DNA of 43,454 nt from Lentisphaeria bacterium (GCA_017502435.1 JAFVUZ010000171.1:1-43454); one strand, 5' to 3'; shown: positions 7,056 through 43,099, counted from the stretch's first letter. The notes: generated by a model not told the origin, from the sequence alone. Made by a program: numbers and translations.

Positions 7056-7068
7056 ACTTTCCTCGTAA

Positions 7069-9744: not shown

Positions 9745-9750
9745 AATATT

Positions 9751-10737: not shown

Positions 10738-10758
10738 AATACATTTTTATAAAAACAG

Positions 10759-11652: not shown

Positions 11653-11654
11653 CT

Positions 11655-12536
11655 TCAATATCTTTCTGTATATTTTATTTTTACCGGAATTAATCCGAAA
11701 AGTAATTTTTTGGTTTTAAAAGTTCCTTTGTAAGTTTTTATGAAAGGAGATTCAAAATAACTTTCAATATAGTTTAATCTTTCCGGTAATGTTATATTTT
11801 TTTCTTTTGCAAATATTTGTAATTCGGTATATGCAGCAACATGATCCTGTTTTTTCTTTTCTGCTGCAGTTTTGGATTTAACTGTAGATGAAGTATTGGT
11901 AATGTAGTGATATGTTGTATTGGGACATGAAATTATTTTATTGGCGGCGTAAATTGTTTTTGCCATGAACATTACATCTTCAACATAACAGTTTTCCGCA
12001 AATAAAATATTATTTTTTTGCAAAAAATCATTCTTGAAAATTTTGTTTGTTACATTGAAAAATCTTTGTTTATTGTCTTTGCAAATATTAATTTTATCAA
12101 CTGTTCCGACGGCTTCTTTTATTTCTTTATATGATACATTATATCTGTTGTATTTCTTTTTGTGTTTCAATAAATTTGTGCTGACAATATCCGCATTGTA
12201 TTTTTCCGCAATATTGTACATTTTCTCACAATAATCAATGTCAATATAATCATCAGCGTCAACAAAAACTGTATATTTGCCACAGGCGTTTTCCAATCCG
12301 CGATTGCGGGCGGCACCTTGTTTTTGATTTTTTTGAGATATGATTTTTATTCTTGTATCAATGTTTGCATATTCAGATAAAATTGTTTCGGATTTATCAG
12401 TGGACCCGTCATTTATGCAAATTATTTCTATATCTTTTAATGTTTGATGGACTAAACTTTCCAGACAGTTTTTTAAGTATTTTTCTGCATTAAAAACCGG
12501 AACAATTATTGACACTTTTGTATCGTTCGATTGCAT
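11655..12536 (-). CDS. GT2 family glycosyltransferase
   Basis: This 293-residue GT-A enzyme has the start VSIIVPVFNAEKYLKNCLESL, the nucleotide loop CINDGSTDKS, AARNRGL, and the metal site Asp93-Ala-Asp95-Asp96. The C-terminus ends in KLLFGLIPVKIKY, a membrane-contact motif like the one at the start of the last gene of the operon. It would add one sugar residue to a surface polysaccharide or glycolipid on the cytosolic face. It is the first gene of the seven-gene minus-strand operon. Its SD (AGGA near 12545) lies inside a sequence that can pair with the 5' end of the leader RNA. Donor and acceptor are unknown. Confidence 0.85.
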   Translation of the reverse strand: MQSNDTKVSIIVPVFNAEKYLKNCLESLVHQTLKDIEIICINDGSTDKSETILSEYANIDTRIKIISQKNQKQGAARNRGLENACGKYTVFVDADDYIDIDYCEKMYNIAEKYNADIVSTNLLKHKKKYNRYNVSYKEIKEAVGTVDKINICKDNKQRFFNVTNKIFKNDFLQKNNILFAENCYVEDVMFMAKTIYAANKIISCPNTTYHYITNTSSTVKSKTAAEKKKQDHVAAYTELQIFAKEKNITLPERLNYIESYFESPFIKTYKGTFKTKKLLFGLIPVKIKYTERY

Positions 12537-28200: not shown

Positions 28201-31200
28201 GCATTGACCCATTCAGAGATTTCAAATCCGTCGCCGTAGTAGTCGCGGATCTGATATTTGACAGTGCTGCCTTCGGGGATATTGTCAATATCATAACTCA
28301 TTATATAATAAGCCCCGACGAAAGTTGAGGGATCAGAACCTTCTTTCTGATATTCAGCAAAAGTTTTTCCGTCAGCATTGACGAGATAAATTCTGCCGGT
28401 AACGGGATTTTTCTTGTTTCCGTCGATTTCAATAGTTCCGTTGAAAGCATCTTTATTGCCGTCAACAGTATTCAGACGCAGGAGCGCGTGCGAATATGCA
28501 TTGCCGTTGGCATCAACAATTTCATAAACGATTTCATAGGCGGAATTTTTGTAATCAGCAATATCACACATCCAGTAAAGTGTGGTAGATGCAGTTGATG
28601 AATAAGTTGTTTCATCTTTGCTGTAAGTGACATAGTTAACTTCACTGTCATTACGCCAGCTGATGTGATGTTCAAAAGCTTCCTTCATAGCGGCGAGTTC
28701 ATCTTGAGTTTTGAGAGAGTTGACAGTGTTGAGAGAAACGTATTCATTTTCGACTTTGACAGCGTTGCCGTTTGCATCTTTAACAACGTCACCGTTTTCA
28801 TCGAGCATATCTTCAATTTTTGTTTCAATATTAACGGCGGTCAAGGTCTTCGGAGTGAAGAACGGGTCTTCTTTTGCATTTTCATCTTTGAGTGCTTTGA
28901 CGGAGAGGGTATGAGTGTCTGTGTCGTAATTGACTTTGACATAAATTGATTCACCGTTTGAACCGTCGATCTGACCGAGACCGCTGTAATTGTTGAGGTA
29001 AATCAAACGGCTTTCTCCCATGTAGGAGATGGTAAGTGCACCGGTTTTCCAATGAGTATCAGCAAGATCGGTAACATCAGCACTTCCGACATATTCGAGG
29101 ATTCTGTAAACTTCACCTTCAGCAATATTGTTGCAGTTGATGGTGATGGTAGTATTACTTGAGAGAGTTGCATCACATTCATTATTTACGGTATGAATGG
29201 CGTATTCCTCGCCAGCGTATCTTGCTTGTTCATCATTGAGAGCATAGGTGAGGTTGATTTTGCCTGTATCATGGTAAACGTAACCGAAAAAGCGTGCATT
29301 ATCATCGAAAGTGAGGTCGTTATTGCCGCCGCCGAGAGCGATGATACCGAAAACAGTAGCATTTTCGCCCAGCTGGAGAATATCATTTTTGAATCCGGAG
29401 GCTACATCATTTCCGAAGTCAGTTTTTACTGCATAACTCAAATAGACGTAGTCAACAGTTTGTGACATATAATAGAGATTGTCGAGAGTAAAATCAGTAA
29501 CAACCACAGGATAGGTGCTTGAGAAAACAAGCCCGTCAACATAGATATTGGCTGTGTCAGGAGTTGCAATCGCATGCTGCTGTGAATAACCCTGCATGAT
29601 GATAGCGCCTTCCACAGTGAAAGTATCCAGAGCAACGACGATCTTTTTCTCTCCGGGATTTGTGCCGTAATCGTTACCGGCATCTTCACCTATGAATGTA
29701 TAGTAATATCCGAGAGCGGATTTGAATGATTCAGCATATATACCGAATGCATTTACTACAGATGAATAAACTTTTATGTCACCGGCAAATCCTTTTGCAT
29801 CAAGTGTTCCTTGAACATATATGCCTGATGCTATCCAACTTCCACCATCAGAGTTTACTGTAATTGTTGATTTAATAAAACCGTCAACAGTCATAGTATT
29901 GGCAAAAATACCATCGGAGTGAGTAGATGCTTTTTTGGTATCATTAACTGTTCCATGCTGGTCATTTCGAATTGTTTTACTTACTAAATGGCATGTGTCG
30001 TTGTTACTTGTATTTACTGTAATAATACCATGAAGATTTCTGTCAACATTGAGATTTGTGGCACGGATACCGGCAAAGGTATAAATACCGGTGCCGTTTA
30101 AATCATCGGGAAAATCAATGTAATTATTTTTACCTTCAACGTAAATAGTACCATAGAAATCATTAAGATTTACAGTGTTGCCGTAAATACCGATTGAATT
30201 TATCTGGTTGTCTGTAATTGTTCCTTTGCCGATAACCGCATACATTTCATTGTCATTAGCGTATGTTTCAATAATTGAACCGGCAGCAAAATCTTTGATT
30301 GTAAGGTTGTTTTCTCCGTAAATACCGACAGCCTGAACGATATTGTTCTGCATAGTATTTGAGGCGGGAGTAGCATCACCTGTTACTTTCAGAATATTGT
30401 CATTTGCTTCAGAATAAATCAGAATATCTTTATCAACGGTGATATATATATTGAAATCTTCATGTTCCAATGTGGTATATTCATAAAGGAGCAATGACGG
30501 CAATCCTGAATTATTATCTTTGGGATTGATGTTTTTCGGAGTAAGCCCATTAATTAAAGAAATATTACTGTTTGACAAACTTCCATTTTTACTGTCTTCG
30601 GCACCTTTAATGCTGTAATCAATAATGAAGTTGGGATCAGTACTGTCAGTGACAAATCCGAATTTGCCTGAGTTGTATGAAGTTGATTTATTGAAGCTGA
30701 CAGCTCCTGTAGTATAATCAAATTCGTAATAGCCTCTTATTTGATTGTCATTAAAATTCAAGGAGGTAAGATCAATTGTTTTATAAATTTCAGCATCTTC
30801 TTCAGTAAATGTATAACTGCAACGATTGCCGTTGAAGGTCACTTCAGAAGCTTCAATACGGACATATTCACCGTCAATATTCAGAATGTAACATCCGTCA
30901 GAGAGTTTGTTTTCACATTCCCAATGGACAGTGCTGTATTTGATATTTTCATTTTTTGACATATCTTCGGGATTATTGCTGTTCATTACAATCTGTCCTG
31001 CTGAGATATTGCCGACATCAGTAGAGGAAAATACGACTTTATTTATGGTCCATGATGTAATATCTGCATCAAGAACTTTTCCTTCATTGTAGAGTTGGAA
31101 TGTGTAGAAGGCAGAAAGAGAATCATAATTGCCGGAATCAATCAAAATAACATTAATGTTTTGCATACTGTAAGTACCATCGATGTTTTTTGTGTATACA

Positions 31201-32435
31201 GCGATTTCTCTTACAGTACCGTTACCTTTTACTCCACCATTTGTAAATTCAACTCTGGTGCCTTCTTCTACCTTCAAACCGGACGGCAGTTCAATGTAGT
31301 AATATTTATAACCGGATGCATCTCTAACGTAAGCATTATCGATTTTTTCTGTCATATCGGTAGCCGTAACCCCGTCTACCTTCAAATTTTCCCAGGTAAA
31401 TTCTGCATTTTTGTCAATGTATTCGATTTTTTTGCCGGATGCATGAGATGAATTGAAACTTGCATCAAGCTGATTGATCGTTACTTCTTTTGCCCGCAGA
31501 CCGGCGGCAGTGATGGTATTGTTTGAGAGGTTGCCATTTGAAGTACTATCGTCAATAGTTGCATCAAGATAATTTTTATTGGCAGTGGTAAAAATTGTTC
31601 CTGCATGAACATTGTCCTGAGTAATTCTCTCCTGACTGAAAACACCGTATGACCCGATTGTATTATTTTGCATTGACTTTCCAGCTGCAGTTTGGAAATG
31701 AACATGAACATTGGCTTTGATGCTGCCGAAGAAACTTCCGTTGAAGTTTACAGCATCATTGCCGCGCAGACCGGCAGCAATAGTACTGGTGTCATTTGCT
31801 GTGTTTTTTGTATTGCCGGAGGGGTCTTTCATGCCGATTGATTCATGGTAGCCTTCAACGTTGATATAACCATTAAAATGAGAGGCTGCGGTGAGGGTGT
31901 TTTTTGCATAAATACCGTTAATGTCAGCAATTTGTCCGGAAAAATTATACTTATCGTTATATTGTACATTTGCACCTGTTTTGAGGGTGATATTTACGCC
32001 ATTGATGGTGAATGAGTCTTCGATGGCACCTTCTGACGCTTTATATTGCTGCCAACCGTCAGTACCGGTATTTGCTTTGTCGTTAGAGAGGAAGTGGTAA
32101 GCATTGATTTTGATATTGCGGTCGTCATGCTTTTTGCCATCGGGAGCACCGATTTGAGAAGAGATATTGAGTTCGCCCTTGCCATTGAAGGAGACAGCGG
32201 CGTAAATCTGGTTGTTTAAGTTGGCTGTCAGAGATTGTTTCTGATAAATATTCCAGTCGTTTCCGTAATTGCCGCCGATGGTGAAGGTTTTGTCCGCAGT
32301 AAGATAAAAACCTTTGAAGGTTTGTATAACTTCACCGTTGAAGTCATGATAATTGCCGACATTGGCAAGCAAATAAACGTCTGCATTATGCACTGTTGCA
32401 ATGTGGTCGTCAGAATCAAAATAGTAGTAAGCCAT
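22221..32435 (-). CDS. giant (3404-residue) repeat-rich surface/secreted protein
   Basis: The ATG follows AGGAGG by 6 nt, so the start is firm. The N-terminus MAYYYFDSDDHIATVHNADV has no Sec signal. Residues 1 to about 1050 are Asn/Gly-rich short repeats with recurring GIYA...L.I..F.G.I motifs, like a right-handed beta-helix adhesin, closing with LGGGNNDLTF. Residues about 1250-2500 hold several Ig/FN3-like units (for example near 1625-1720, VDAAGNYGTPSDKITIYAVD). These are joined by Gly-rich (about 1880-1898) and Ser/Thr-rich linkers. Residues about 2545-3320 hold five repeats like prepeptidase C-terminal domains. The C-terminus ends DTANKLITIA. I infer export by a non-Sec route such as type I secretion, but no transporter gene is nearby. 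A cell-surface adhesin or matrix protein is likely; the ligand is unknown. Confidence 0.75.
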   Translation of the reverse strand: MAYYYFDSDDHIATVHNADVYLLANVGNYHDFNGEVIQTFKGFYLTADKTFTIGGNYGNDWNIYQKQSLTANLNNQIYAAVSFNGKGELNISSQIGAPDGKKHDDRNIKINAYHFLSNDKANTGTDGWQQYKASEGAIEDSFTINGVNITLKTGANVQYNDKYNFSGQIADINGIYAKNTLTAASHFNGYINVEGYHESIGMKDPSGNTKNTANDTSTIAAGLRGNDAVNFNGSFFGSIKANVHVHFQTAAGKSMQNNTIGSYGVFSQERITQDNVHAGTIFTTANKNYLDATIDDSTSNGNLSNNTITAAGLRAKEVTINQLDASFNSSHASGKKIEYIDKNAEFTWENLKVDGVTATDMTEKIDNAYVRDASGYKYYYIELPSGLKVEEGTRVEFTNGGVKGNGTVREIAVYTKNIDGTYSMQNINVILIDSGNYDSLSAFYTFQLYNEGKVLDADITSWTINKVVFSSTDVGNISAGQIVMNSNNPEDMSKNENIKYSTVHWECENKLSDGCYILNIDGEYVRIEASEVTFNGNRCSYTFTEEDAEIYKTIDLTSLNFNDNQIRGYYEFDYTTGAVSFNKSTSYNSGKFGFVTDSTDPNFIIDYSIKGAEDSKNGSLSNSNISLINGLTPKNINPKDNNSGLPSLLLYEYTTLEHEDFNIYITVDKDILIYSEANDNILKVTGDATPASNTMQNNIVQAVGIYGENNLTIKDFAAGSIIETYANDNEMYAVIGKGTITDNQINSIGIYGNTVNLNDFYGTIYVEGKNNYIDFPDDLNGTGIYTFAGIRATNLNVDRNLHGIITVNTSNNDTCHLVSKTIRNDQHGTVNDTKKASTHSDGIFANTMTVDGFIKSTITVNSDGGSWIASGIYVQGTLDAKGFAGDIKVYSSVVNAFGIYAESFKSALGYYYTFIGEDAGNDYGTNPGEKKIVVALDTFTVEGAIIMQGYSQQHAIATPDTANIYVDGLVFSSTYPVVVTDFTLDNLYYMSQTVDYVYLSYAVKTDFGNDVASGFKNDILQLGENATVFGIIALGGGNNDLTFDDNARFFGYVYHDTGKINLTYALNDEQARYAGEEYAIHTVNNECDATLSSNTTITINCNNIAEGEVYRILEYVGSADVTDLADTHWKTGALTISYMGESRLIYLNNYSGLGQIDGSNGESIYVKVNYDTDTHTLSVKALKDENAKEDPFFTPKTLTAVNIETKIEDMLDENGDVVKDANGNAVKVENEYVSLNTVNSLKTQDELAAMKEAFEHHISWRNDSEVNYVTYSKDETTYSSTASTTLYWMCDIADYKNSAYEIVYEIVDANGNAYSHALLRLNTVDGNKDAFNGTIEIDGNKKNPVTGRIYLVNADGKTFAEYQKEGSDPSTFVGAYYIMSYDIDNIPEGSTVKYQIRDYYGDGFEISEWVNASINTQKQEYPAFVEDVNSKYMVAVNPDDNTRRIGSSIALFTWRAVESNYAVDYYNVQYFSSTEDLSGNDLKRKAIFDAYAKASKQDGWQNGVHSYDENGKTITFDIYFGNGEIQIRELVSSIKFSDGTEENIYNYYNFVSKNVSGTELLASGLSNQSYIYWQVNATDILGTQNNYVEGGDFRIFLGDTEGPAFIDKTVLSYNQELEYAITSKEFTIKDFTWGGITADDEKSGVRYYILEASPKDKNQWTEVYHIDAHELDDIQKFNFNIAPGIYDIRVRPVDAAGNYGTPSDKITIYAVDNVKPECTLTETKANAWIIGEGDYMQQLGWNYTFSFNPAVDPTSENGTFQSTGINEYVIDIYYTDVNGARNSVDWELWGLTNDPETGELTYVRINGVTPRNNKFVPDSKYQGYQIRTGNMTYYELDTAGNPVYNEEFESFVYNNRKYFVSISVSDKIGNTTSIINKELNVSPEGGGGEGGSTGGSAPVGVFTDIKEAVVKATHNIIENTIPGSGEGSSETTQQIIGEITEATVTLSWTDTFTSDNGVYYLMQVSDSAFFDSNRTYTVLIVPSTMPDADVFTLYNSLSDKYNNLRIFVANASSTTSSSPSSGTENDENSSTTSSGSWRKGSNYYTTTIIMDNKNPTVPVGMFANKNQTYWQIKAVDGSGNETDFEAVQDLNFQSDLTNQKITETRTPAAPYNISVIAQIDNSREFISVNGAVLQKNDGNQELRFDILNTSTLLGYDYFIVEYSSNNGGNNGALAYYEIISENGISSPVTHCYNAFLVNNNGAILDEGDYTLTIKAYDSTGKYAQSEKYTFIQDLTRPVIPETSVGTSPNKINTTIKVAFDKPTDDDPRILTTVSWPAALDRYGIKGYVLSYRCAAINNQWQKVYINGTDLITENSCQITLFKDQTYDFAIYAIDNNGNYSEETVIEGVYISYKDIDEDSTGEDNPGYTPFSTGPIAIHNQLIGGSDTYDNIYVSTDNGINNAPGEIQISIDNLQKISGSGNSIIIDIYEDNGGDIKIGSYTFKLNAASQSSGITITHLLEHSGNNLRFEVTSGKADSIMQYDLYYNFNWFDITNDNNSIITSDQADFAEENQDSTSNPVSKYNAFWNPAQNDSLNYDVLPGHELQLATDARVGYADPSNFTKLHIGDNGLYTFNLNKESTQTNSALKLTIYQMLPGATALKTVKSITVAANKLYGTINDLNLAPGDYIIQVNSTGAAKGANVIYDLTVTSKADKYFDNINNEDDLFVNSTEADTIISITKDDIQEEYNFIFGTPDTAQTSKLSVADYDYVGIGDASDFRKITVSDAGVYNFAISKAYYLDKDRYGRIFGIDGALTMTIYELQDGKTALTKVNSITVKAKALAGELSAYLDKGEYYIEVKASAPQKTAVEYAVVMDYVNFGANGTETIYEAGYEYTINSTGLIYLNDTNSKESYEYIGFGENVNYLEVNLEKDGDYTFTVNRNQNTKGSDYSALKATLYTSNAAGTGFTAVKSITLKNSNYSSVFTLNNLAAGQYFIEITATDAAKGKYAEYNVSVNTAQTYETIPDTVANYVNAGTVAADTKIEVAEDGPKFYKFETGNMTGKYEFSGAVVNVYTLKTGAVNLTKVKLSSDTAYLDANTTYFVEVSPASSFEIISETVKDITDCVKDSDFSNLTADETIALNDEQTTGAFSSWVGYGDLESWRKLELENGGNFNLSILKDNEQNATAMTVTIYTMADNGISLKSVGSFTVKAGVAEAMKNFLLEAGDYYIQVKSTTAQGYSDFTLNINGDGTEDSFTAKADQEFNDTALTESVISDEVKGWVGYTDEYDYYNVSVDADGYYDFNFSNSDAAQLTLYIVNPDNSKLTAIASYTAKTNAVGDAIFQDKNGNGILLNDSSQYIAMVKSTNAKKGGNCDYDFSIFNYEDVQVFEFVIENGCSGKYEFKNLGADVSIKQFNEATGKLFDVKLTNDNIASLKEGTYFLTSATDIFSDVDIDTANKLITIA
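22480..24800 (-). repeat. five PPC-like protein repeats in the giant gene
   Basis: The encoded units begin near 24795 (ARVGYADPSNFTKL), 24310 (DYVGIGDASDFRKI), 23870 (EYIGFGENVNYLEV), 23165 (SWVGYGDLESWRKL) and 22785 (GWVGYTDEYDYYNV). Each has VGxxD, then GxYxF, TiYxM, LxxVxSxTVKA and a closing GDYYIQVKST block. Shorter, degraded units lie between the third and fourth and at the very end. Such beta-sandwich repeats occur in the C-terminal part of many secreted proteins. The divergence between units indicates an old amplification. Confidence 0.65.
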
Positions 32436-32807: not shown

Positions 32808-34955
32808 TTATGCTTTAATATACTGACAGTTTATGATTTTTTCCAGCAGTTCGTTTACTGTGTAAGCGTAGTGATTTGTCGCTTCAAAACCGAGACGGGA
32901 GTCCTGACGTGCGAGTTTCAGGAGTTTGGCTGCAAGGGCGATTTCTTCATCCAGAAGTTTGTTCCGTGCAGCAGTATCGTTGCCGTCACGGAGTCTGTCG
33001 ATGAAATACGCCTGATTTGCGGCACTTGCATAGGCACAGAAACAGGCCTCTGCAACTGAACAGAGATCATTGTAATTGTCTTGAAATTCAGGAGTTATAT
33101 CGGAAGCGGCACTTTTCAGAATGTCCATACCCTGCTGCCAGATTTCACAGAGTTTGTAAAGAGAGTTGTAATAAGTTGCAGGTTTGTACGGACCGCACCA
33201 GCCTTTTAAATCGTCGTACGGAATGCCGACCATAGTGGCTTTGTACTTTGTATCTGCAGGATAGAGCAGATTAGCAGGGCCGATATTGTGGGGGGAATTG
33301 TACAAAACTTCAACATCAAACGGGAATTTTGTAAATGCTTCACTGAAAAGATTTAATGCTTTGTCTATTTTTTCTGCCGGTTGCTGACCGAAATTGTTTA
33401 TGACCATCTCTTCATGAGTCATTTGCAGCAAATCCATATTGAATGACGGATAGCCGCCGAGAGTCCAGTTGGTGACGTAGTTTTTGATGCCTTCATTGCG
33501 GAGTCCCTGCAGGTGTTTTTCGACCAGTTTTGTAGCGGGGATGTACGGTACGGCAGAGCCTTCCCAGGAGCATGACAACTGGGTTTTTGCAAAAGTTTTT
33601 AACCCGTATTCTGCGGCGATATGCCATGTTTTTTTGCTTTTTTCACCGGGGCCCGGACGTGAAATCGAGTAGTCTCGCACGCAGGTTTTAACGCCGTCGA
33701 TTTCGATGGGTATCTGACTTTCGCTGACTGCCATGAAAGCGGTTGATTTCGGAAGTTTTGCGGCGATTTCCGGAATCCATTCCTGACGCCATGCCCAGTC
33801 CCAGCAGATGATTTGAGCATCGGGATTTTCACTGCGGGCGGCATCGGAGATAATGGTTGCAATTTCTGCAATGACTTCAGGGACGGCACGTCCGGCACAG
33901 CGGGGACAGGAGGTGTTTTCTCCTTTAAGACATCTTGAATGACAGTGGGTCAGATATTCCGACTGGGTGATCATAAATGCACCGCCGAGCCCTTTGACTG
34001 AACCGAAAATGGATTTCACTGCATTTGCAAGATATTCTCTGACTGCAGGTTTTGCAGTACACATTGAGTAAAGATTCTGTTCCAAATCTTCGACTTCGAG
34101 ATATTTTTCCTGTATATTCTGATTATTTTTGAAAAGACCGATCGGCAATCCCCGGGGCTCATTGAGATAGAGAAATACTTTCATGCCGTATTTTGCGGCT
34201 TTTTTGACCAGATCGTTGAGCGAAGCAATGCGTTTCTCATAGTTTTGAGAGAGTTCAGGAGCATCCGCCCAGTAATGAAGCTGATACAGAACGCCCGGAA
34301 GCCAGATCGCATTTACACCTTTCTGACGCAGTTTATACAGAAGTCCGTCCGGATACGGATCAAGTTCAGGATTGGCAAGTGAATCCCCGTAAAGTGCTGA
34401 ATATGAATAAGCAATAAAAAGTCCGTCTGCAGTTTTGAATGTTGGAAGTTCTGACGGTGCTTTGAATTTTTTGATAAAGTCAAAAGGTGCTTCAACCGGA
34501 TAGTCAGGCTGGTATTTCAAAACAGTTTCCCGGATGACAGCGGTCTGTTTTTCCTCATCGGAAGTAAGTTCGCGGCACGGCTCGACCGGGCACTGCGGTT
34601 TCAGGCTGCCGAGTTTGATCCAGAGAAAGTCTTCATTCTGCAAAGTATCCGCCAGTTTTTCTGCACTCCAGCCCAGCATACGCAGTATTGCATCATAGTT
34701 GAGAAGCTGCCAGTTGGTGCGGATTATTGAAACATATCCTCTCTGCAGCCATGCGGGATCGGGATTTGCGGTTGGGAGTCCCATTTTTTCTGCGTGTTTT
34801 ATGACATCTTCAGCGGAGGAATTGAGAGCGGCGGCGATTTTTTCAACCGGCACGATGTTCCAGTTTCTGAAAATAACGGCTTGAAAATTGGTGGGGAACC
34901 ATGGGGTTGAAACCGCAGTTGGAGCGGAACCTGCAGGAAGTATATCCAAGTTCAT
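32808..34955 (-). CDS. putative TIM-barrel glycoside hydrolase, family not assigned
   Basis: The protein has 715 residues and no signal peptide. The N-terminal 150 residues look like an accessory domain. The barrel then has typical strand ends GVNAIWLPGVL (213-223), GMKVFLYLNEPRG (257-269), GGAFMITQSEY (Glu333 a candidate acid) and QIICWDWAW (381-389). A CX3CX7CX2C cluster (Cys338, 342, 350, 353) follows the putative acid and could hold zinc. The C-terminal 200 residues are helical. This outline resembles glycosidases related to hexosaminidases in Verrucomicrobia and Planctomycetes, but I cannot place it in a GH family. It diverges from the CE15-like genes, with a shared control region. The ribosome site is AAAGG. 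Confidence 0.6.
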   Translation of the reverse strand: MNLDILPAGSAPTAVSTPWFPTNFQAVIFRNWNIVPVEKIAAALNSSAEDVIKHAEKMGLPTANPDPAWLQRGYVSIIRTNWQLLNYDAILRMLGWSAEKLADTLQNEDFLWIKLGSLKPQCPVEPCRELTSDEEKQTAVIRETVLKYQPDYPVEAPFDFIKKFKAPSELPTFKTADGLFIAYSYSALYGDSLANPELDPYPDGLLYKLRQKGVNAIWLPGVLYQLHYWADAPELSQNYEKRIASLNDLVKKAAKYGMKVFLYLNEPRGLPIGLFKNNQNIQEKYLEVEDLEQNLYSMCTAKPAVREYLANAVKSIFGSVKGLGGAFMITQSEYLTHCHSRCLKGENTSCPRCAGRAVPEVIAEIATIISDAARSENPDAQIICWDWAWRQEWIPEIAAKLPKSTAFMAVSESQIPIEIDGVKTCVRDYSISRPGPGEKSKKTWHIAAEYGLKTFAKTQLSCSWEGSAVPYIPATKLVEKHLQGLRNEGIKNYVTNWTLGGYPSFNMDLLQMTHEEMVINNFGQQPAEKIDKALNLFSEAFTKFPFDVEVLYNSPHNIGPANLLYPADTKYKATMVGIPYDDLKGWCGPYKPATYYNSLYKLCEIWQQGMDILKSAASDITPEFQDNYNDLCSVAEACFCAYASAANQAYFIDRLRDGNDTAARNKLLDEEIALAAKLLKLARQDSRLGFEATNHYAYTVNELLEKIINCQYIKA

Positions 34956-35054: not shown

Positions 35055-35082
35055 TTGCAAAAAATGTTATTGATGCTAAATT
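35055..35082 (+). promoter_or_regulatory. promoter of the first CE15-like gene
   Basis: TTGCAA (35055-35060) and TAAATT (35077-35082) are separated by 16 bp, with an extended -10 TGC directly ahead. The block at 35070-35090 is conserved ahead of the second paralogue (36418-36438). Confidence 0.45.
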
Positions 35083-35124
35083 AAATACGATTTTTTCAAC
35101 AACCTGTATATCAAGGAGTTTTTT

Positions 35125-36318
35125 ATGCATAAAAATACAGATGAATCATGCGTCGGCCCTTATACTCTGCCTGACGTTCTCAAGTGCAGTGACGGCAGAA
35201 TGATTGATAACGCTTTTGACTGGGTGAATACACGCCGCAGTGAAATTCTGGATATTTATCGCAGAACGATGTACGGTTTTCTGCCGCCGCGTCCGGACAA
35301 AACTGAATTTGAAGTCATTTCAGAGAAAAATGATGCTCTTGACAATACAGCTATCCGCAAAGAGATACGTCTTTCTTTTGCAATGAATAATGGCAGAAAG
35401 CACTCTTTTGTCATGCTCCTTTACATCCCCAAAAATGCCGCCAAACCGGTTCCGGTATTTTGCGGATTGAATTTTAAAGGCAATCACAACTGTACTTTTG
35501 AAGATGATGTTGAAATGACCGGCAGAAACAGCAGCGGAGAACTTGTGGAAACTGAACGGTCAGATCAGATACACCGCTGGCAGTTTGCTGAAACTGTCAA
35601 ACGCGGTTTTGCCAGTGCCACGGTCTGCTATCATGATATTTACCCTGATGAAAAAGATGAAAATTCATGGCGTAAAAGCGTTTATAATATGTTTTTTGCC
35701 GATGAATCCAATGAAGAATTTCATTCTCACGCAAGTGCAGTAAGTGCATGGGCATGGGGACTTTCAAGAATGCTGGACTGTCTGGAAAGTGAACCTTTGA
35801 TCGACAGTTCCAAAGCATTTGTTCACGGACATTCCCGACTTGGCAAAACTTCTCTCTGGGCGGGGGCAAATGATACCCGTTTCAAAATGGTTGTCTCAAA
35901 TGATTCCGGCTGCTGCGGTTCAGCACTTTTGCGTCGTGATTTCGGTGAAACTGTTGAAATTATCACTCACTATTTTCCGCACTGGTTTGTCAGTTCTTTT
36001 GCCGGATATGCCTGTTGTGAAGCGGAAATCCCGTTTGACCAGCACTGGCTGATTTCTTTGATTGCTCCCCGCTATGCGGCAATCGGCAGTGCAGAGGAGG
36101 ATTTGCACGCCGACCCGAAGGGCGAATTTCTGTCAGGAGCTCATGCCGGTAGAGTTTATAACCTTTTCGGCATTGAAACTTACAATGAAAATACTCCGCA
36201 TCCGGTCAATTCATGTATCACCGGTGCAGTAAGTTATCACATCCGCAGCGGCGGTCATGATCAGACTTTGGTTGACTGGAAACACTACTGGGAAATTGCA
36301 GATATTATCAAAGGATGA
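35125..36318 (+). CDS. CE15-like (glucuronoyl esterase family) hydrolase, paralogue 1
   Basis: This is a 397-residue alpha/beta hydrolase. The nucleophile elbow is GHSRLGK with Ser237, and the catalytic His378 lies in GGHDQT. Blocks LNFKGNH, WAWGLSRMLDC, GANDTRF, SGCCGSAL, LPF/IPFDQH and LIAPRYAAIGSAEEDLHADPKGEF match bacterial CE15 enzymes. Known members cleave ester links between glucuronoyl groups of xylan and lignin. The ATG has AAGGAG 6 nt ahead and there is no signal peptide, so the protein should be cytosolic. The protein begins at the point where the mature part of paralogue 3 begins (MHKNTDES). It is transcribed divergently from the glycosidase-like gene. Substrate unknown. Confidence 0.8.
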   Translation: MHKNTDESCVGPYTLPDVLKCSDGRMIDNAFDWVNTRRSEILDIYRRTMYGFLPPRPDKTEFEVISEKNDALDNTAIRKEIRLSFAMNNGRKHSFVMLLYIPKNAAKPVPVFCGLNFKGNHNCTFEDDVEMTGRNSSGELVETERSDQIHRWQFAETVKRGFASATVCYHDIYPDEKDENSWRKSVYNMFFADESNEEFHSHASAVSAWAWGLSRMLDCLESEPLIDSSKAFVHGHSRLGKTSLWAGANDTRFKMVVSNDSGCCGSALLRRDFGETVEIITHYFPHWFVSSFAGYACCEAEIPFDQHWLISLIAPRYAAIGSAEEDLHADPKGEFLSGAHAGRVYNLFGIETYNENTPHPVNSCITGAVSYHIRSGGHDQTLVDWKHYWEIADIIKG

Positions 36319-36403
36319 AAAGTAACCTTCAGTTTGACCTGTTTAAATCTTTCACAGAATTCAGACATTGACAGTAAATTTATACTTTTTCCGGTCAAAA
36401 TAT

Positions 36404-36431
36404 TTGTAAAAAGGTACTTGAATGCTAATTT
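36404..36431 (+). promoter_or_regulatory. promoter of the second CE15-like gene
   Basis: TTGTAA (36404-36409) and TAATTT (36426-36431) are 16 bp apart, with TGC ahead of the -10 box. AAAAAGGTACTTG (36408-36420) lies in the spacer and matches the sequence ahead of the glycosidase-like gene at 12 of 13 positions. The 158-bp gap between paralogues 1 and 2 holds no other feature that I see. Confidence 0.45.
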
Positions 36432-36476
36432 AATACGAAAACATTTTCTGTATTTGTTGTTTTAGGAGTTTACATC

Positions 36477-37664
36477 ATGTATAAAAATGAAGATGAATCA
36501 ATGGTCGGAGCATACACACTTCCTGAAGTTCTCGAATGTTCCGATGGTAAAATTATTGATAATGCTTTTGACTGGGTTCATATCCGCCGTCCGGAGATAT
36601 TGGAAATATACAAAAAGACGATGTACGGTTATCTGCCGGTGCGTCCGGACAAAACAGAATTTGAGGTCGTTTCAGAAAAAAATGACGCCCTCAACAATAC
36701 TGCTGTACGCAAGGAGATAAAACTTACTTTCAGTATGAATGGCAAAACCCACTCTTTTGTCATGCTGTTGTATATTCCTAAAAATGCAGTTGCTCCCGTT
36801 CCGGTTTTTGTCGGTTTGAATTTCAGGGGCAATCACACTGTTACGCCTGAAAATGATGTTATAATGACCGGAAAAACTCTTGACGGAGAGTTCGTTGAGA
36901 GCAGACGTTCAATACATATCAACCGCTGCTGTTTTGAAGAAACTGTCAAACGTGGCTATGCCACTGCGACGGTCTGTTACCATGATGTTTATCCTGACAG
37001 TAAAGATGAAAATTCATGGCGGAAAAGTGTTTACAATTTGTTCTATGCCGATGAAAGCAATGAAAAATTTCACACTCACGCTTCCGCGATCAGTGCATGG
37101 GCATGGGGTATGTCCCGTATGCTTGACTGTCTGGAAGGTGAAAAAATGATTGATTGCAGTAAAGCATTTGTTTACGGACTTTCAAGATTGGGCAAAGCCG
37201 CTCTCTGGACGGGGGCAAATGATACACGTTTCAAAATGGTAATAAGCAACGAGTCCGGCTGCTGCGGTGTAGCACTTCTGCGTCGTGATTTCGGCGAAAA
37301 TGTGGAAATTATCACTCACTATTTTCCGCACTGGTTCGTCAGTTCTTTTGCTCAATATGCCTGTTGTGAAGCAGAAATCCCGTTTGACCAGCATTGGCTG
37401 ATTTCTTTGATTGCTCCCCGCTATGCGGTAATCGGCAGTGCAGAGGAGGATTTGCACGCCGACCCGAAGGGAGAATTTCTGTCAGGAGCTCATGCCCGCA
37501 GAGTTTACAAACTTTTCGGTATTGAAACTTACAATGAAAATACTCCGCATCCAGTCGGTTCACATATCACCGGTGCAGTAAGTTATCACATCCGCAGCGG
37601 CGTTCACGACCAAAACCTTGCCGACTGGGAACATTACTGGGAAATTGCAGATAAAATTAAATAA
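36477..37664 (+). CDS. CE15-like hydrolase, paralogue 2
   Basis: This 395-residue protein is closely similar to the paralogues on either side. The elbow is GLSRLGK with Ser236, and the catalytic His377 is in GVHDQN. The usual first His of GHSR is Leu here and in paralogue 3. It begins MYKNEDES without a signal peptide; AGGAG lies 8 nt ahead of the ATG. Long stretches of DNA are identical to paralogue 3 (for example around 37029-37070 and 38348-38390), suggesting recent duplication or gene conversion. It is followed after 28 nt by paralogue 3, so they form an operon. Likely cytosolic; substrate unknown. Confidence 0.8.
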   Translation: MYKNEDESMVGAYTLPEVLECSDGKIIDNAFDWVHIRRPEILEIYKKTMYGYLPVRPDKTEFEVVSEKNDALNNTAVRKEIKLTFSMNGKTHSFVMLLYIPKNAVAPVPVFVGLNFRGNHTVTPENDVIMTGKTLDGEFVESRRSIHINRCCFEETVKRGYATATVCYHDVYPDSKDENSWRKSVYNLFYADESNEKFHTHASAISAWAWGMSRMLDCLEGEKMIDCSKAFVYGLSRLGKAALWTGANDTRFKMVISNESGCCGVALLRRDFGENVEIITHYFPHWFVSSFAQYACCEAEIPFDQHWLISLIAPRYAVIGSAEEDLHADPKGEFLSGAHARRVYKLFGIETYNENTPHPVGSHITGAVSYHIRSGVHDQNLADWEHYWEIADKIK

Positions 37665-37692
37665 AATATAAAACGTGAGAAAGGTTATTGTA

Positions 37693-38991
37693 ATGTTGAA
37701 AAAATTATCAGTTGTGATGTTGGGCTTGACTGCTGTTGTTTTTTGCGGCTGCCGGACAGAGCGTTTGACTTCTGCTCCGGGCAGAATCAAAAATCCTGTC
37801 ATGCATAAAAATACAGATGAATCGCTGGTCAAACCTTATATTTTACCTGATGTTCTGTTGAGCAGAACAGGTAAGAAAATTGAAAACGCTTTTGATTGGG
37901 TGCATATCCGTCGCCCTGAACTGCTTGAACTTTACAAAAAGGAAATGTATGGTTATCTGCCGTTGCGTCCGGACCGGACAGAATATGAAATTATTTCCGT
38001 CAAAGATGACGCTCTCAACAATACTGCTGTCCGTAAGGAAATTAAACTTACTTTCAGTATGAACGGTAAAAAACACTCTTTTGTCATGCTGTTGTATATT
38101 CCTAAAAATGCAGTTGCTCCCGTTCCGGTTTTTGTCGGTTTGAATTTCAAAGGCAATCACACCGTTACACCCGAAAAAGATGTCCTTATGACCGGCAGAA
38201 ATGTTGACGGAAAATTAATTGAAAAGAGACGATCAAGACATATCAAACGTTTCTATATTGAAGAAACTGTCAAACGTGGTTTCGCCACTGCAACGGTCTG
38301 TTATCACGATGTTTATCCTGATAACAAAGATGAAAATTCGTGGCGGAAAAGTGTTTACAATTTGTTCTATGCCGATGAAAGCAATGAAAAATTCCACACT
38401 CACGCTTCAGCGATCAGTGCATGGGCATGGGGTATGTCCCGTATGCTTGACTGTCTGGAAGGTGAAAAAATGATTGATTGCAGTAACGCATTTGTTCACG
38501 GTCTTTCAAGATTGGGTAAAGCCGCTCTCTGGGCAGGTGCCAACGATACCCGTTTCAAACTTGTAATAAGCAACGAGTCCGGCTGCTGCGGTGCGGCACT
38601 TGCCCGCCGTGACTTCGGAGAAACTCTGGAAATAATCACCCACTATTTTCCGCACTGGTTCGTCAGTTCTTTCAAAAAATATGTACATCGAGAGAACGAA
38701 TTGCCCTTTGACCAGCACTGTTTGGCAGCTTTGATTGCTCCGCGGTATCTGGCAATCGGCAGTGCAGAGGAGGATTTGCACGCCGACCCGAAAGGGGAAT
38801 TTCTGTCAGGTGCTCATGCCGGCAGAGTTTATAAACTTTTCGGCGTTGAAACTTACAATGAAAATACTCCGCATCCGGTCGGTTCACATATCACCGGTGC
38901 AGTAAGTTATCACATCCGCAGCGGCGTTCACGACCAAAACCTTGCCGACTGGGAACATTACTGGAAAATTGCAGATAAAATCAGGAAGTAA
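37693..38991 (+). CDS. CE15-like hydrolase, paralogue 3, predicted lipoprotein
   Basis: The protein has 432 residues. The start at ATG 37693 has GAGAAAGG 8 nt ahead; a GTG at 37675 is less likely. Residues 1-19 form a lipoprotein signal (MLKKLSVVMLGLTAVVFCG) with Cys20 as the probable lipid site, although the -3 and -2 residues (Phe-Cys) are unusual. The hydrolase domain starts at Met37 (MHKNTDES) and carries Ser272 (GLSRLGK) and His413 (GVHDQN). It is the only paralogue with an export signal, so it should act in the periplasm or on the surface. The EamA transporter gene follows after 3 nt. Confidence 0.82.
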   Translation: MLKKLSVVMLGLTAVVFCGCRTERLTSAPGRIKNPVMHKNTDESLVKPYILPDVLLSRTGKKIENAFDWVHIRRPELLELYKKEMYGYLPLRPDRTEYEIISVKDDALNNTAVRKEIKLTFSMNGKKHSFVMLLYIPKNAVAPVPVFVGLNFKGNHTVTPEKDVLMTGRNVDGKLIEKRRSRHIKRFYIEETVKRGFATATVCYHDVYPDNKDENSWRKSVYNLFYADESNEKFHTHASAISAWAWGMSRMLDCLEGEKMIDCSNAFVHGLSRLGKAALWAGANDTRFKLVISNESGCCGAALARRDFGETLEIITHYFPHWFVSSFKKYVHRENELPFDQHCLAALIAPRYLAIGSAEEDLHADPKGEFLSGAHAGRVYKLFGVETYNENTPHPVGSHITGAVSYHIRSGVHDQNLADWEHYWKIADKIRK

Positions 38992-38994
38992 AAA

Positions 38995-39900
38995 ATGACT
39001 TGGCTTGCTTTTGTACTGATATTGCTGTCTGCAATGCTTCATGCTGCGTGGAATCTGATTGCCAAAAAAAATACTATGACAGTGCCTTTTTACACGATTT
39101 TGTGTATTATGGGGGCGTTGGTCTGGCTTCATGTTCAATTTTGGACGCCGGTTGCGGTTTGGAGTCTGCCGCTGAAATTCTGGCTGATGATTGCAGGAAC
39201 GATTACTTTTGACGTTTTGTACTGCTTCAGTCTGGTGCTGATTTACAGAAAAATGGAAATGGCGACGGCATATCCCATGATGCGTTCACTGCCTATTCTG
39301 CTGACGGTATTGACGACGGCGGTTTTCGGACTTGGCAGTGCTATCGGCTGGGTACGCGGAATCGGTTTTATGGTTGTTTTTGCGGGAGCGCTGCTGATGC
39401 CGCTCAGAAATTTTTCGCAGATGAAACTTTCAACTTATCTCAACTGGAAAATGTTTTATGTTCTGCTGGCGGCCTGCGGAACGACCGGCTATACAGTTTT
39501 TGACAGTCAGGGGGTTAAAATAATCCGTTCATTGTACAGCGATGTTTCTGCAGTTACTGTTTCTTTGACATATTATTCGACAAGGGCACTGCTGCTGTCA
39601 ACGACATTGTGCATTTGCTGTTGTTTTATGGCTGAAGCGAGAAAAGTTTTCAGGGATTATTGGGAAAAACGCAATTTTTATCCGGTTCTGGCTGCCTGCT
39701 GTTCATCATCGACATACATATTGGTTCTGATTGCGATGAATTATGTTACGAATGTCTCTTATGTACAGGTCTGCCGTCAGTTCGGACTGCCGCTCGGAAT
39801 GCTGGCAGGCATTCTGATACTGAAAGAAAAAAGTGCAGTTATCAAATGGGTCGGCGTTTCGTTGATCCTTGTCGGATTTGCAATATCTTTTCTTGGCTGA
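38995..39900 (+). CDS. EamA-type (drug/metabolite superfamily) transporter
   Basis: This is a 301-residue inner-membrane protein with about ten helices in two similar halves. The first half opens LLSAMLHAAWNLIAKKN, typical for EamA members. The second ends in KEKSAVIKWVGVSLILVGFAIS, the usual closing block. It starts 3 nt after the third esterase gene and probably shares its transcript. Export or import of a sugar-derived product is a reasonable inference, but the family transports many compounds. Cys residues are frequent in the second half. Confidence 0.85.
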   Translation: MTWLAFVLILLSAMLHAAWNLIAKKNTMTVPFYTILCIMGALVWLHVQFWTPVAVWSLPLKFWLMIAGTITFDVLYCFSLVLIYRKMEMATAYPMMRSLPILLTVLTTAVFGLGSAIGWVRGIGFMVVFAGALLMPLRNFSQMKLSTYLNWKMFYVLLAACGTTGYTVFDSQGVKIIRSLYSDVSAVTVSLTYYSTRALLLSTTLCICCCFMAEARKVFRDYWEKRNFYPVLAACCSSSTYILVLIAMNYVTNVSYVQVCRQFGLPLGMLAGILILKEKSAVIKWVGVSLILVGFAISFLG

Positions 39901-39913
39901 AATACCCTCAAAT

Positions 39914-40771
39914 TTACCGCTGAAGGCGGTTTTGACTGCGGTATTGCGATGGAGTCATGCTGAATTTTTTCTGAAATTCTCTTGTCAGATAGTAGGAGTA
40001 TGAAAAGCCGCATTCTGCGGCTATTTCTGCTATTGGTTTATTGGAGAATTTGAGCAGCTGTCTGACTTTTTCCATGCGTTTGAAGGAGATTGTGTCGTGA
40101 ATGGTTGAATTGAGGTGCTTGCGGAAAAGATTTCCGAGAGTTGAAATACTTACGCAGGCGGCATGAGCGACATCCTGACGTGATAAATTCTGATTTTGAA
40201 AATGATTGTCAATATATTTTAAAGCTGCAAGCAGGCTTTCGGGGAGGGGACTTGCCGGAAGCTGATTCATTGCTTCATGGAGTAACCGGTAAGCATAACT
40301 GCTTATCATGGAATCATCTGCATCATTTGAGGTGATGCTGTCGCGGATATCTTCGAAACATTTTTTGAGTTTGCCGGGGGCGGCGGCTTGAAAAGCCGGA
40401 AGTTTTGAAGGAAACATTTCATCGAGCATATTCAAAGTAAGAGAATTGACTTCAAGCAGAATGAAATACCGCTCAACGGTATCTGAAATTGTCAGGAAAT
40501 CCCGGTCTATGTTGTTAAGGTTTATTATGGAAAAAAATCCGGGGGAGATTTTTATTTTTGTACCGTCTTTGAAAATCATTTGCTGATTGCCCGAAAGTAT
40601 CAAAAATGCAATAATATTCGGTCTTTGTGAATTGCTGTCGTTTTTCCAGCCGTACCGTGTTGATGAATGGCAGAAAGTCTGTACACGCAAACTGTTTGTT
40701 CCTTGCTTGAAAGGGGTTATGTTCACATCGTATGTCTCATGAAAGAGATTTGATTTCCAGATATTCTGCAT
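39914..40771 (-). CDS. AraC-family transcriptional regulator
   Basis: The protein has 285 residues. The N-terminal half is a cupin-like sensor (ILSGNQQMIFKDGTKIKISPGFFSIINL). The C-terminal 100 residues hold two helix-turn-helix motifs (LSRQDVAHAACVSISTLGNLFRK and KPIAEIAAECGFSYSYYLTREFQKK), ending in the usual TPSQYR. It converges on the EamA gene and diverges from the aminotransferase gene. The direct repeats ahead of the glycosidase-like gene would suit such a regulator; the inverted repeat at 40825-40846 could be an autoregulatory site. The effector is probably a sugar. The ribosome site is AAAAGGA. Confidence 0.9.
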   Translation of the reverse strand: MQNIWKSNLFHETYDVNITPFKQGTNSLRVQTFCHSSTRYGWKNDSNSQRPNIIAFLILSGNQQMIFKDGTKIKISPGFFSIINLNNIDRDFLTISDTVERYFILLEVNSLTLNMLDEMFPSKLPAFQAAAPGKLKKCFEDIRDSITSNDADDSMISSYAYRLLHEAMNQLPASPLPESLLAALKYIDNHFQNQNLSRQDVAHAACVSISTLGNLFRKHLNSTIHDTISFKRMEKVRQLLKFSNKPIAEIAAECGFSYSYYLTREFQKKFSMTPSQYRSQNRLQR

Positions 40772-40824: not shown

Positions 40825-40853
40825 TTGCAATTTTTTTGAAATGCAAGTATATT
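40825..40853 (+). promoter_or_regulatory. promoter and inverted repeat ahead of the aminotransferase gene
   Basis: TTGCAA (40825-40830) and TATATT (40848-40853) are 17 bp apart. An inverted repeat TTGCA-N12-TGCAA (40825-40846) covers the -35 box and spacer, a position suited to an operator for the divergent AraC-type regulator. Confidence 0.5.
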
Positions 40854-40910
40854 AGTACCGCAAAAGCACAAAATATACAGAATTTTTCAACTTTGAACAT
40901 GGAGGTTGTT

Positions 40911-42236
40911 ATGAGTGAAAAAGAATCATCCGGCGGCGATTTCCGCTATGCTGTCGGCGAAAGTAAAGTTCCGTGGCACGCAGTCGGAGAATTTTATGAC
41001 GGCAGAGATGCTGTTGAAATGATAAAATTTCTGCTGCCGGACGAAGGCAGGAAGGGGTATGAGTGCGAGTTGGCAAAAGTCGCAGAAGCTGTGAAATCAC
41101 TTGCTGCTGTAGGCGGCAAGGCAACTAAACTCACTCTCGGCAAAAAAGTTGCTGAAGCAGAGGAACTTTCCAGAAATTATTTTGGTACCAAATATGCCTG
41201 TTTCCTTGATAACTGGACCGGCGGTATGGAAATTGCATACAAACTTGCAGGTATCGGTCCCGGTGATGAAATCATCATGCCCGCAGTGACATTTATTGCT
41301 ACAATGGCTTATCCGCTGAATGTCGGTGCCAAAATTGTTTTTGCCGACATCGACCCTGAAACCATCAATCTCGATCCTGCAGATGTTGCCCGCAAAATCA
41401 CTCCTAAAACCAAAATGATCGTTCCGGTTCATCTCGGAGGTTATCCTGTTGATATGGACCCGATCATGGCACTTGCCGCCAAACATAATATTATTGTTAT
41501 GGAGGATGCGGCACATGGTATGGGCGGTGCTTACAAGGGGAGAAAACTCGGTTCCATAGGTCATTTCGGCGGCTTTTCTCTGCATGAGGTCAAAAATATT
41601 ACCGCACTCGGTGAAGGCGGCGTGCTTCTCTCCAATGAAGATTGGGCAGGTCCGCAGTTCCCCGGCGGCAGATTCCTCGGGCTGGATTTCACCCGCAAAA
41701 TCAAAGACTGGCTGTACGATATTTCACCGTTGACCGACCGTTTCGGCAAACCGCAGGTCGCACTCAATCATTCAGCAACAGAAATTCAGGCACTCGGCAT
41801 GATTCTTCAGATGCAGAGACTTGATGAAATTATTTCCATCCGCCGCAAAGCTGCTGAATATATGAACAGCGTTCTTGTGCAGGAGGAGGGAATTCTGGTC
41901 GAAAAAGCTGATACTGCAGAAACTTACGGAACTCACCACTTGTATCTGCTGCGTATTGATCCGGAAATCGTCGGCGGCAATATTCAGACTCTTTCCAGGA
42001 AACTGGCGGCAAAAGGTTTGACTAATATCACACATTTCGGTCCGATGTACCGCTTCAGGATAATGAAAGATTTCGGATATGACGAAGATGCTATTGCTGC
42101 AACTTGTCCGAATACAGAACAGATGTTCTATAACTCTTATACACATCTGCCGCTCTATCCGCTTACACAGGAACAACTTAAATATCAGGCTCACGCAGTT
42201 GTCGAAGCCGTTCGTGAAATGAAACAGGGAAAATAA
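40911..42236 (+). CDS. DegT/DnrJ/EryC1/StrS (ArnB-like) PLP aminotransferase
   Basis: This 441-residue enzyme normally aminates keto-sugars. The PLP lysine is Lys228 in SLHEVKNITALGEGG. EDAAHGMGGAYKG supplies Asp199 and the His stacking region, and PAVTFIATMAYPLNVGAKIVFADID is a family block. The ATG at 40911 has GGAGG 5 nt ahead; an upstream TTG frame is not used. The N-terminal 75 residues are longer than in ArnB. It is followed by a creatininase-family gene after 2 nt. This pair is unusual and suggests amino-sugar, aminocyclitol or amide metabolism. The exact substrate is not known. Confidence 0.88.
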   Translation: MSEKESSGGDFRYAVGESKVPWHAVGEFYDGRDAVEMIKFLLPDEGRKGYECELAKVAEAVKSLAAVGGKATKLTLGKKVAEAEELSRNYFGTKYACFLDNWTGGMEIAYKLAGIGPGDEIIMPAVTFIATMAYPLNVGAKIVFADIDPETINLDPADVARKITPKTKMIVPVHLGGYPVDMDPIMALAAKHNIIVMEDAAHGMGGAYKGRKLGSIGHFGGFSLHEVKNITALGEGGVLLSNEDWAGPQFPGGRFLGLDFTRKIKDWLYDISPLTDRFGKPQVALNHSATEIQALGMILQMQRLDEIISIRRKAAEYMNSVLVQEEGILVEKADTAETYGTHHLYLLRIDPEIVGGNIQTLSRKLAAKGLTNITHFGPMYRFRIMKDFGYDEDAIAATCPNTEQMFYNSYTHLPLYPLTQEQLKYQAHAVVEAVREMKQGK

Positions 42237-42238
42237 TT

Positions 42239-43099
42239 ATGGCTCTTGCACATTACAGAATGCTGGACTGCACTTTTCCTGAAGTGCAGGAATATTTGAA
42301 AACCAAACAAACAATCATCATCCCCTATGCTCTGAGTGAACAGCACGGGGCACATCTGCCGTTGGATGTTGATGTCCGCAATACTGAGTTTATCAGCAGA
42401 AAACTGGCGGAAAAACTTGACTGTCTTATCGCACCGACGTTGAATTATACTTTTTCCGGCGGGATGTTTCCCGGTACTATCAATGTCAAACCGGCGACTT
42501 TCTGCAATCTTGTCGGCGAGATCATTGAATCGCTCTATCTGCAGGGGTTCCGCAATTTTGTGATACTTCCCGGACATGGCGGCAGTGAAAGTCTGATGCA
42601 GCTCAAGGAATCTCTCCGTATTCTGAAGTGGCTCAATCCCACACTTTCGGATGCGATGATTCTGTTGACCCAGATATGGGATTTTTCACCGACATGGTTC
42701 AATATGTTTGATGAAAAGGATTATCACGCCGCCAAAGCTGAAACATCTCTTATGCTTTACTGGTGTCCGGAAGTTGTGAGACTTGACAAATTGACAATGG
42801 ACGAAGATGAAGTTGCAGAACGTCTCCGGCAGGACCCTGACAGTTATCAGCTCCGTGAAAGTTTTACCGAACTGCCGCAGGAAATCGTTCAGACTTCACA
42901 GCGTCAGGATGTTAAACTCGGCGTTATGGGTTATCCTGAAGAGGCTTCTGCTGAAATCGGCAGACGAATTGAGACCGAATGTATTGAAAACGGCGGCAAT
43001 GCCATTCTGCAAGCCATTGCTGATGCAGATGCCGCCCGCAAAAGCGGTAAACGTATCGTTCACGACAACGGAGCTCATTTGAAAATCAGAAGTGTTTGA
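42239..43099 (+). CDS. creatininase-family metal-dependent amidohydrolase
   Basis: The protein has 286 residues. Metal ligands are visible: Glu34, His36 (SEQHGAHLPLDVD), Asp43, His113 (GHGG) and Glu168 (HAAKAETS). Family members include creatinine amidohydrolase, formamide hydrolases of riboflavin/F420 synthesis and the mycofactocin protein MftE. The substrate here is unknown. It is coupled to the aminotransferase gene and so may remove an amide or formyl group from an amino-sugar. No signal peptide is seen. Confidence 0.85.
   Translation: MALAHYRMLDCTFPEVQEYLKTKQTIIIPYALSEQHGAHLPLDVDVRNTEFISRKLAEKLDCLIAPTLNYTFSGGMFPGTINVKPATFCNLVGEIIESLYLQGFRNFVILPGHGGSESLMQLKESLRILKWLNPTLSDAMILLTQIWDFSPTWFNMFDEKDYHAAKAETSLMLYWCPEVVRLDKLTMDEDEVAERLRQDPDSYQLRESFTELPQEIVQTSQRQDVKLGVMGYPEEASAEIGRRIETECIENGGNAILQAIADADAARKSGKRIVHDNGAHLKIRSV

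Follow-up and report, generated by a model that had tools for sequence, protein, structure and literature searches.

A tandem triplet of CE15-family esterase genes in a Lentisphaeria bacterium, with a predicted lipoprotein leader on the third copy only

All characterised members of the esterase family CE15 are reported to conserve Trp358 (OtCE15A numbering), a residue that hydrogen-bonds the glucuronate (PMC6069808, PMC6937553). For PvCE15 and PiCE15A, two CE15 enzymes from pectin polysaccharide utilization loci (PULs) of Bacteroidota, uronic-acid esters of rhamnogalacturonan have been proposed as substrates (PMC10807430). A literature search that missed most subscription journals returned no report of leaderless CE15 enzymes in Lentisphaeria, nor of plant-polymer enzymes being cytosolic throughout this class; "leaderless" and "exported" denote throughout predictions made from the leader by a hydrophobicity rule. 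The present analysis concerns a tandem triplet of CE15-family genes (35125-38991) in a 43,454-nucleotide stretch of DNA, hereafter the window (GCA_017502435.1, JAFVUZ010000171.1), from a gut-type Lentisphaeria bacterium represented by a single metagenome-assembled genome (MAG; 87% complete, 5% contamination). The reading that we favour, at a probability of roughly 0.7, is that a leaderless CE15 gene was triplicated in tandem specifically in this lineage, with copies 1 and 2 cytosolic and a lipoprotein signal secondarily gained by copy 3. The triplicated enzyme would thus act in the cytosol in the form of copies 1 and 2, while the addition of a lipoprotein signal ahead of the original start codon of copy 3 would have anchored a similar enzyme in the envelope. 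We infer that the products of copies 1 and 2 are retained in the cell and that these enzymes hydrolyse uronic-acid esters on imported oligosaccharides.

Gene structure and CE15 membership of the three copies

Copies 1 (35125-36318, plus strand, 397 aa) and 2 (36477-37664, plus strand, 395 aa) are leaderless, and copy 3 (37693-38991, plus strand, 432 aa) carries a lipoprotein-type leader, an arrangement of open reading frames (ORFs), starts and leader that matches the preliminary description of the locus. Strong Shine-Dalgarno sequences of their own precede copies 1 and 2 (-8.0 and -6.8 kcal/mol, respectively), as that description had also held. An upstream start with a signal was sought for both: the stop-to-stop frames measure 412 aa for copy 1 and 411 aa for copy 2, leaving only 15 and 16 open codons upstream of the Met and no other start codon, so that a leader on either copy is impossible barring a frameshift. 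The mechanical ORF call for copy 3 begins at a GTG (37675-38991). Among its three candidate starts, however, only the ATG at 37693, 28 nt past the stop of copy 2, is preceded by a Shine-Dalgarno sequence (AAAGG, -3.6 kcal/mol), none being found at the GTG or at the internal ATG at 37801, and the ATG at 37693 is thus the credible start. Homology between the three copies opens at MHKN, MYKN and MHKN, corresponding to Met1, Met1 and Met37; from Met1 on, copy 1 reads MHKNTDES, as does copy 3 from Met37 on.

The leader of copy 3 (37693-37800, plus strand) consists of MLKKLSVVMLGLTAVVFCGC followed by a linker up to Val36. Lipoprotein signals combine a positively charged n-region and a hydrophobic core with a lipobox closing in a Cys within residues 15-35. 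Copy 3 displays Lys3 and Lys4, a hydrophobic core at residues 5-17 and the lipobox FCGC at residues 17-20, ending in Cys20 (37750-37752, plus strand), and thereby conforms to this pattern in each of its parts. In the AlphaFold model of copy 3 the leader is disordered, residues 1-43 having no confident structure, and the fold begins at Met37 (ATG 37801-37803, plus strand), about 16 linker residues after Cys20. The codon for Met37 is homologous to the start codon of either leaderless copy. It had been proposed that these two copies start exactly where the mature domain of copy 3 begins; the homology of the starts bears this out, but a processed lipoprotein would have Cys20, not Met37, as its first residue.

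Assignment of the three proteins to CE15 is borne out by the family model, by alignment to solved members, by the Ser/Arg/Lys motif and by the His and acid residues. All three copies match Pfam PF22244 with 89-113 bits (cut-off 27), and copy 3 aligns over its full length with OtCE15A and SuCE15C in the PDB (E about 1e-90). Among PDB entries, its AlphaFold model (mean pLDDT 80.8) is closest to OtCE15A (TM-score 0.88, by target), followed by the PvCE15 structure 8q6s. Ser272, Arg273, Lys276, Glu310, Asp361 and His413 (copy 3 numbering) are kept in all three copies, and among them are the equivalents of OtCE15A Glu305 and of the non-canonical acid Asp356. The nucleophile Ser lies in a G-x-S-R-x-G-K motif, which reads GHSRLGK in copy 1 and GLSRLGK in copies 2 and 3, and the canonical acid at position 295 is Asp in copy 1 (within NDSG) and Glu in the other two; the His of copy 1 stands in GGHDQ. 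The earlier statement that the catalytic Ser and His persist in all three copies is confirmed by the alignment, in which catalytic Ser, Arg and His were found in 156/156 homologues.

Distribution of leaderless enzymes and history of the array

CE15 homologues were collected from the family to which the window belongs (78 genomes, mostly MAGs), where 73/85 were leaderless and 12/85 had a leader. At further CE15 loci of the wider order and class, 19/20 were leaderless, and the one leader called among them appears spurious; the homologue in a Victivallis vadensis MAG was leaderless as well. Among named CE15 relatives outside Lentisphaeria, 59/63 had a leader, from which it follows that the rule is able to detect leaders. 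The preliminary description was thus right in finding leaderless and exported paralogues side by side with their catalytic residues intact, but not in treating the cytosolic form as the oddity. In a tree of 156 CE15 domains from which the leaders had been trimmed, copies 2 and 3 (W2 and W3) grouped together with a support of 99, copy 1 joined them at 93, and the homologues L034 and L035 followed at 99 and 100. Copies 1 and 2, L034 and L035 are all leaderless and surround copy 3, whose nested position indicates that its leader was gained; with every neighbour in the tree leaderless, one gain in copy 3 is simpler than repeated loss. A same-genus relative carries a single leaderless CE15 gene adjoining the same divergent gene of 715-716 aa as in the window and, together with the predominance of leaderless forms, marks the exported copy as the derived one. 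The most likely account of these sequences is that intracellular hydrolysis of uronate esters is the rule, and that one duplicated copy was re-exported by gain of a leader. At two other CE15 loci, L057 and L074, a leader-like segment ends at a Met near the start of the domain; in this pair, export was probably gained independently.

The trait extends beyond the CE15 locus, given that leaderless GH10 and GH28 enzymes occur in the same genomes. About 20 of the GH10 xylanases of the family (L193-L222, with ORFs chosen by a simple motif) were clearly leaderless versus about 6 with a leader, and most of this set lack a signal peptide at the N-terminus and are preceded by a good Shine-Dalgarno sequence. 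For GH28, 34/49 family members (L231-L260, L292-L351) and 7/7 at the level of order and class were leaderless; elsewhere in the phylum 16/18 were exported. The commonest start of leaderless GH28 enzymes lies at position -3 of a VxDFGA motif. Among exported GH28 enzymes, a Met at exactly this position was present in 12/15 from the family versus 0/16 from outside the class (Fisher p 3e-6), a p value that overstates the number of independent events, as the 12 correspond to few changes on the tree (at least five, at least four of them forced by well-supported branches). Such a fossil Met is what the gain of a leader before an intact leaderless gene would leave behind. The odds appear to us even that Lentisphaeria as a class moved CE15, GH10 and GH28 enzymes, which other phyla export, into the cytosol and repeatedly re-exported members by means of a leader placed before the retained start, with copy 3 as a clear recent case within a tandem array. 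If so, uptake of sizeable oligo- or polysaccharides is implied: were the leaderless enzymes of the three families to work inside the cell, the class would have to import bulky, possibly esterified plant oligosaccharides, and the uptake system would become a concrete target for searches, also in cultured Victivallis vadensis. The start Met retained at the junction of leader and domain may serve as a sequence mark telling gain of export from loss, and the triplet, whose enzymes closely resemble one another but are predicted to occupy two compartments, offers a direct test of the effect of location on function.

Ratios of nonsynonymous to synonymous substitution (dN/dS) of 0.21-0.22 among the copies, and of 0.13-0.15 between the copies and L034, were obtained, the former arguing for purifying selection on the copies. 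Identity between them is mosaic: codons 361-390 are 99% identical in copies 2 and 3, and codons 301-330 are 97% identical in copies 1 and 2. The longest identical runs exceeded those expected from site permutation (p 0.0005 for copies 2 and 3, 0.004 for copies 1 and 2, and 0.0005 for copies 1 and 3), and no such excess was seen between the copies and L034. This combination of mosaic identity and long identical runs is as expected of gene conversion inside the array. Ahead of copy 1 lies a promoter-like element, ATTGATGCTAAATTAAATACG (35069-35089, plus strand), which recurs ahead of copy 2 as TTGAATGCTAATTTAATACG (36418-36437, plus strand); the two upstream regions align with a score of 49 (shuffled mean 26, maximum 43). 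As a genome-wide motif the element was rejected, with 2 matches at 3 mismatches versus 1 in the control; it is either specific to the triplet locus or uninformative. No relatives were found in the viral contigs searched.

Substrate, location and alternative readings

Several observations weigh against triplication of a cytosolic enzyme with secondary export of copy 3. The triplet is known from one MAG, a second genome carrying it not having been seen, and the leader calls come from a simple, heuristic hydrophobicity rule. A donor of the copy 3 leader was sought in the bacterium's own genome but not found, the best match being 20 bp only. Nor was a transporter identified that would import the presumed oligosaccharide. 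Finally, a His replaces the equivalent of Trp358 in each of the three copies, and also in their closest homologue, L034; the next homologue, L035, has Trp there.

This last substitution removes the Trp contact of glucuronoyl esterases from every copy, so that the substrate of the copies may differ, and it is for this reason that membership of CE15 is claimed here and glucuronoyl specificity is not. The Trp was absent from 37/85 leaderless versus 7/71 exported CE15 homologues. A link between Trp loss and the leaderless state was nevertheless rejected, as independent pairs on the tree showed none (trait b differs in 0-1 of 9 pairs), and the excess is thus a lineage effect. GH28 accounts for 13 matches in the bacterium's own genome, which also encodes one uronate isomerase; GH10 and GH115 were not detected in it, although their absence could stem from the incompleteness of the MAG, a further point on the unfavourable side. 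This enzyme content favours a pectin-type substrate, and esters of galacturonate or rhamnogalacturonan seem likelier substrates than glucuronoxylan; the CE15 enzymes of Bacteroidota pectin loci provide a precedent (PMC10807430). The alternative that survives best, which we hold to be possible though clearly on the unlikely side, builds on these same data: the triplet would comprise CE15-fold esterases with a non-glucuronoyl substrate, and specificity, not chiefly location, would set its copies apart. In its favour are the His shared by the copies and L034, the Asp of copy 1 versus the Glu of copies 2 and 3 at the acid position, and the lack of detected GH10 or GH115. Against it, Ser, Arg, Lys, His and the equivalents of Glu305 and Asp356 are all retained, and the change to His, being common to the three copies, does not separate them.

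It is improbable, in our view, that copies 1 and 2 and the other leaderless enzymes of Lentisphaeria are exported by a non-classical route and that no cytosolic pathway exists. In favour of such a route, cytosolic uptake of large polysaccharides lacks documentation here, and a repeat protein of 3404 aa in the window is likewise devoid of a Sec-type N-terminus, so that another way out of the cell may exist. The CE15 proteins nonetheless extend no further than the final helix of the fold, at about 395 aa compared to 397 aa for the crystal construct, which leaves no room for a C-terminal secretion domain, and Sec and lipoprotein leaders are plainly used by neighbour genes in the same genomes, the hydrophobicity rule assigning N-termini of signal or membrane type to 162/525 of those at the same loci.

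A similarly improbable alternative places the error in copy 3, whose leader would not be a functional lipoprotein signal but, for example, an inner-membrane anchor or an untranslated extension. The more usual lipobox is L-A-G-C; FCGC is rarer, and the Shine-Dalgarno sequence at 37693 is modest. On the other hand, the frame is open, the n-region is charged and the core hydrophobic, a Shine-Dalgarno sequence is present at the start of the leader and none at Met37, and the FCGC lipobox recurs in another lipoprotein, encoded next to a relative (L042). We thus infer from these features that the leader of copy 3 works as an export signal. Dual translation starts, by which one gene would give rise to both forms, were not supported, in that Met37 of copy 3 has no Shine-Dalgarno sequence. 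SD-like (Shine-Dalgarno-like) bases were seen at the fossil Met in about half of the exported GH28 genes that have it, but internal ATGs of the CE15 genes are often SD-like by chance (8/24 at -5 kcal/mol or below). Least probable of all is that the exported form was ancestral at the locus and that the leader was lost from copies 1 and 2, which came to start at the internal Met: export by 59/63 relatives outside Lentisphaeria makes it the deeper ancestral state of the CE15 family, but leaderless forms predominate in the class, loss would need several independent events versus one gain, and the same-genus locus carries one leaderless gene.

Neighbouring genes and comparison with known systems

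Three nt past the stop of copy 3 lies a gene for an EamA/DMT-like membrane protein (38995-39900, plus strand), which scores 22.3 bits against the EamA model of Pfam (gathering threshold 28.2) and 139 against TIGR03340 (288) and is hence EamA-like only. It is absent beside the CE15 loci of the two closest relatives, and nothing was found that ties it to uronate, so that the split pathway suggested in the preliminary description, in which de-esterification at the surface would be followed by transport and then by processing inside the cell, is a hypothesis. An AraC-family regulator (39914-40771, minus strand) comes next. The divergent gene on the other side of the triplet (32808-34955, minus strand) encodes a leaderless protein of 715-716 aa, a probable TIM-barrel-type glycoside hydrolase. 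Its model is confident (pLDDT 92), with GH89 and the GH67 alpha-glucuronidase among the nearest folds, both at TM-scores below 0.4; a weak match to the GH67 middle domain appeared in 3/30 members of its family alignment. This protein family has no confident Pfam assignment, is expanded in the lineage (matches in 50/78 genomes, up to 15 per genome) and is possibly an undescribed glycoside hydrolase family; a role in the release of uronic acid is a lead and not a result. Conserved operon partners of leaderless CE15 genes were looked for: no functional neighbour recurs widely across the family, and the gene of 715-716 aa is shared within the genus.

Elsewhere in the window, the 3404-aa protein (22221-32435, minus strand) is repetitive, of surface type and without a Pfam match. 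Genes for NeuB-like, CMP-sugar synthetase-like, phosphatase-like and glycosyltransferase proteins (6159-12536, minus strand) read like a cluster for synthesis of a nonulosonic (sialic-acid-type) acid, and a DegT/DnrJ/EryC1 aminotransferase gene is directly followed by a creatininase-family gene (40836-43099).

Set beside the closest known enzymes, the bacterial glucuronoyl esterases OtCE15A of Opitutus terrae and SuCE15C of Solibacter usitatus, the triplet shows homology over the whole length and about 41% identity in the fold alignment, with the same catalytic Ser and His, Arg, Lys and both acid positions as OtCE15A (PMC6937553). Unlike these enzymes, copies 1 and 2 are leaderless and all copies have His in place of Trp358, and the setting differs in that no GH10 xylanase or GH115 was detected in the genome. 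With the hosts of PvCE15 and PiCE15A the bacterium shares the occurrence of CE15 alongside GH28-type pectin enzymes; the genes for PvCE15 and PiCE15A, however, lie in PULs with SusC/D, whereas those of the window stand in tandem, are mostly leaderless and have no PUL visible around them. In an isolate of Kiritimatiellota, 61% of glycoside hydrolases have signals (PMC10880615). Planctomycetota, which like Lentisphaeria belong to the Planctomycetes-Verrucomicrobia-Chlamydiae (PVC) group and possess many carbohydrate-active enzymes for plant polymers, present the opposite secretion pattern, almost all of their lignocellulose- and pectin-targeting enzymes being predicted to be secreted (PMC11131199).

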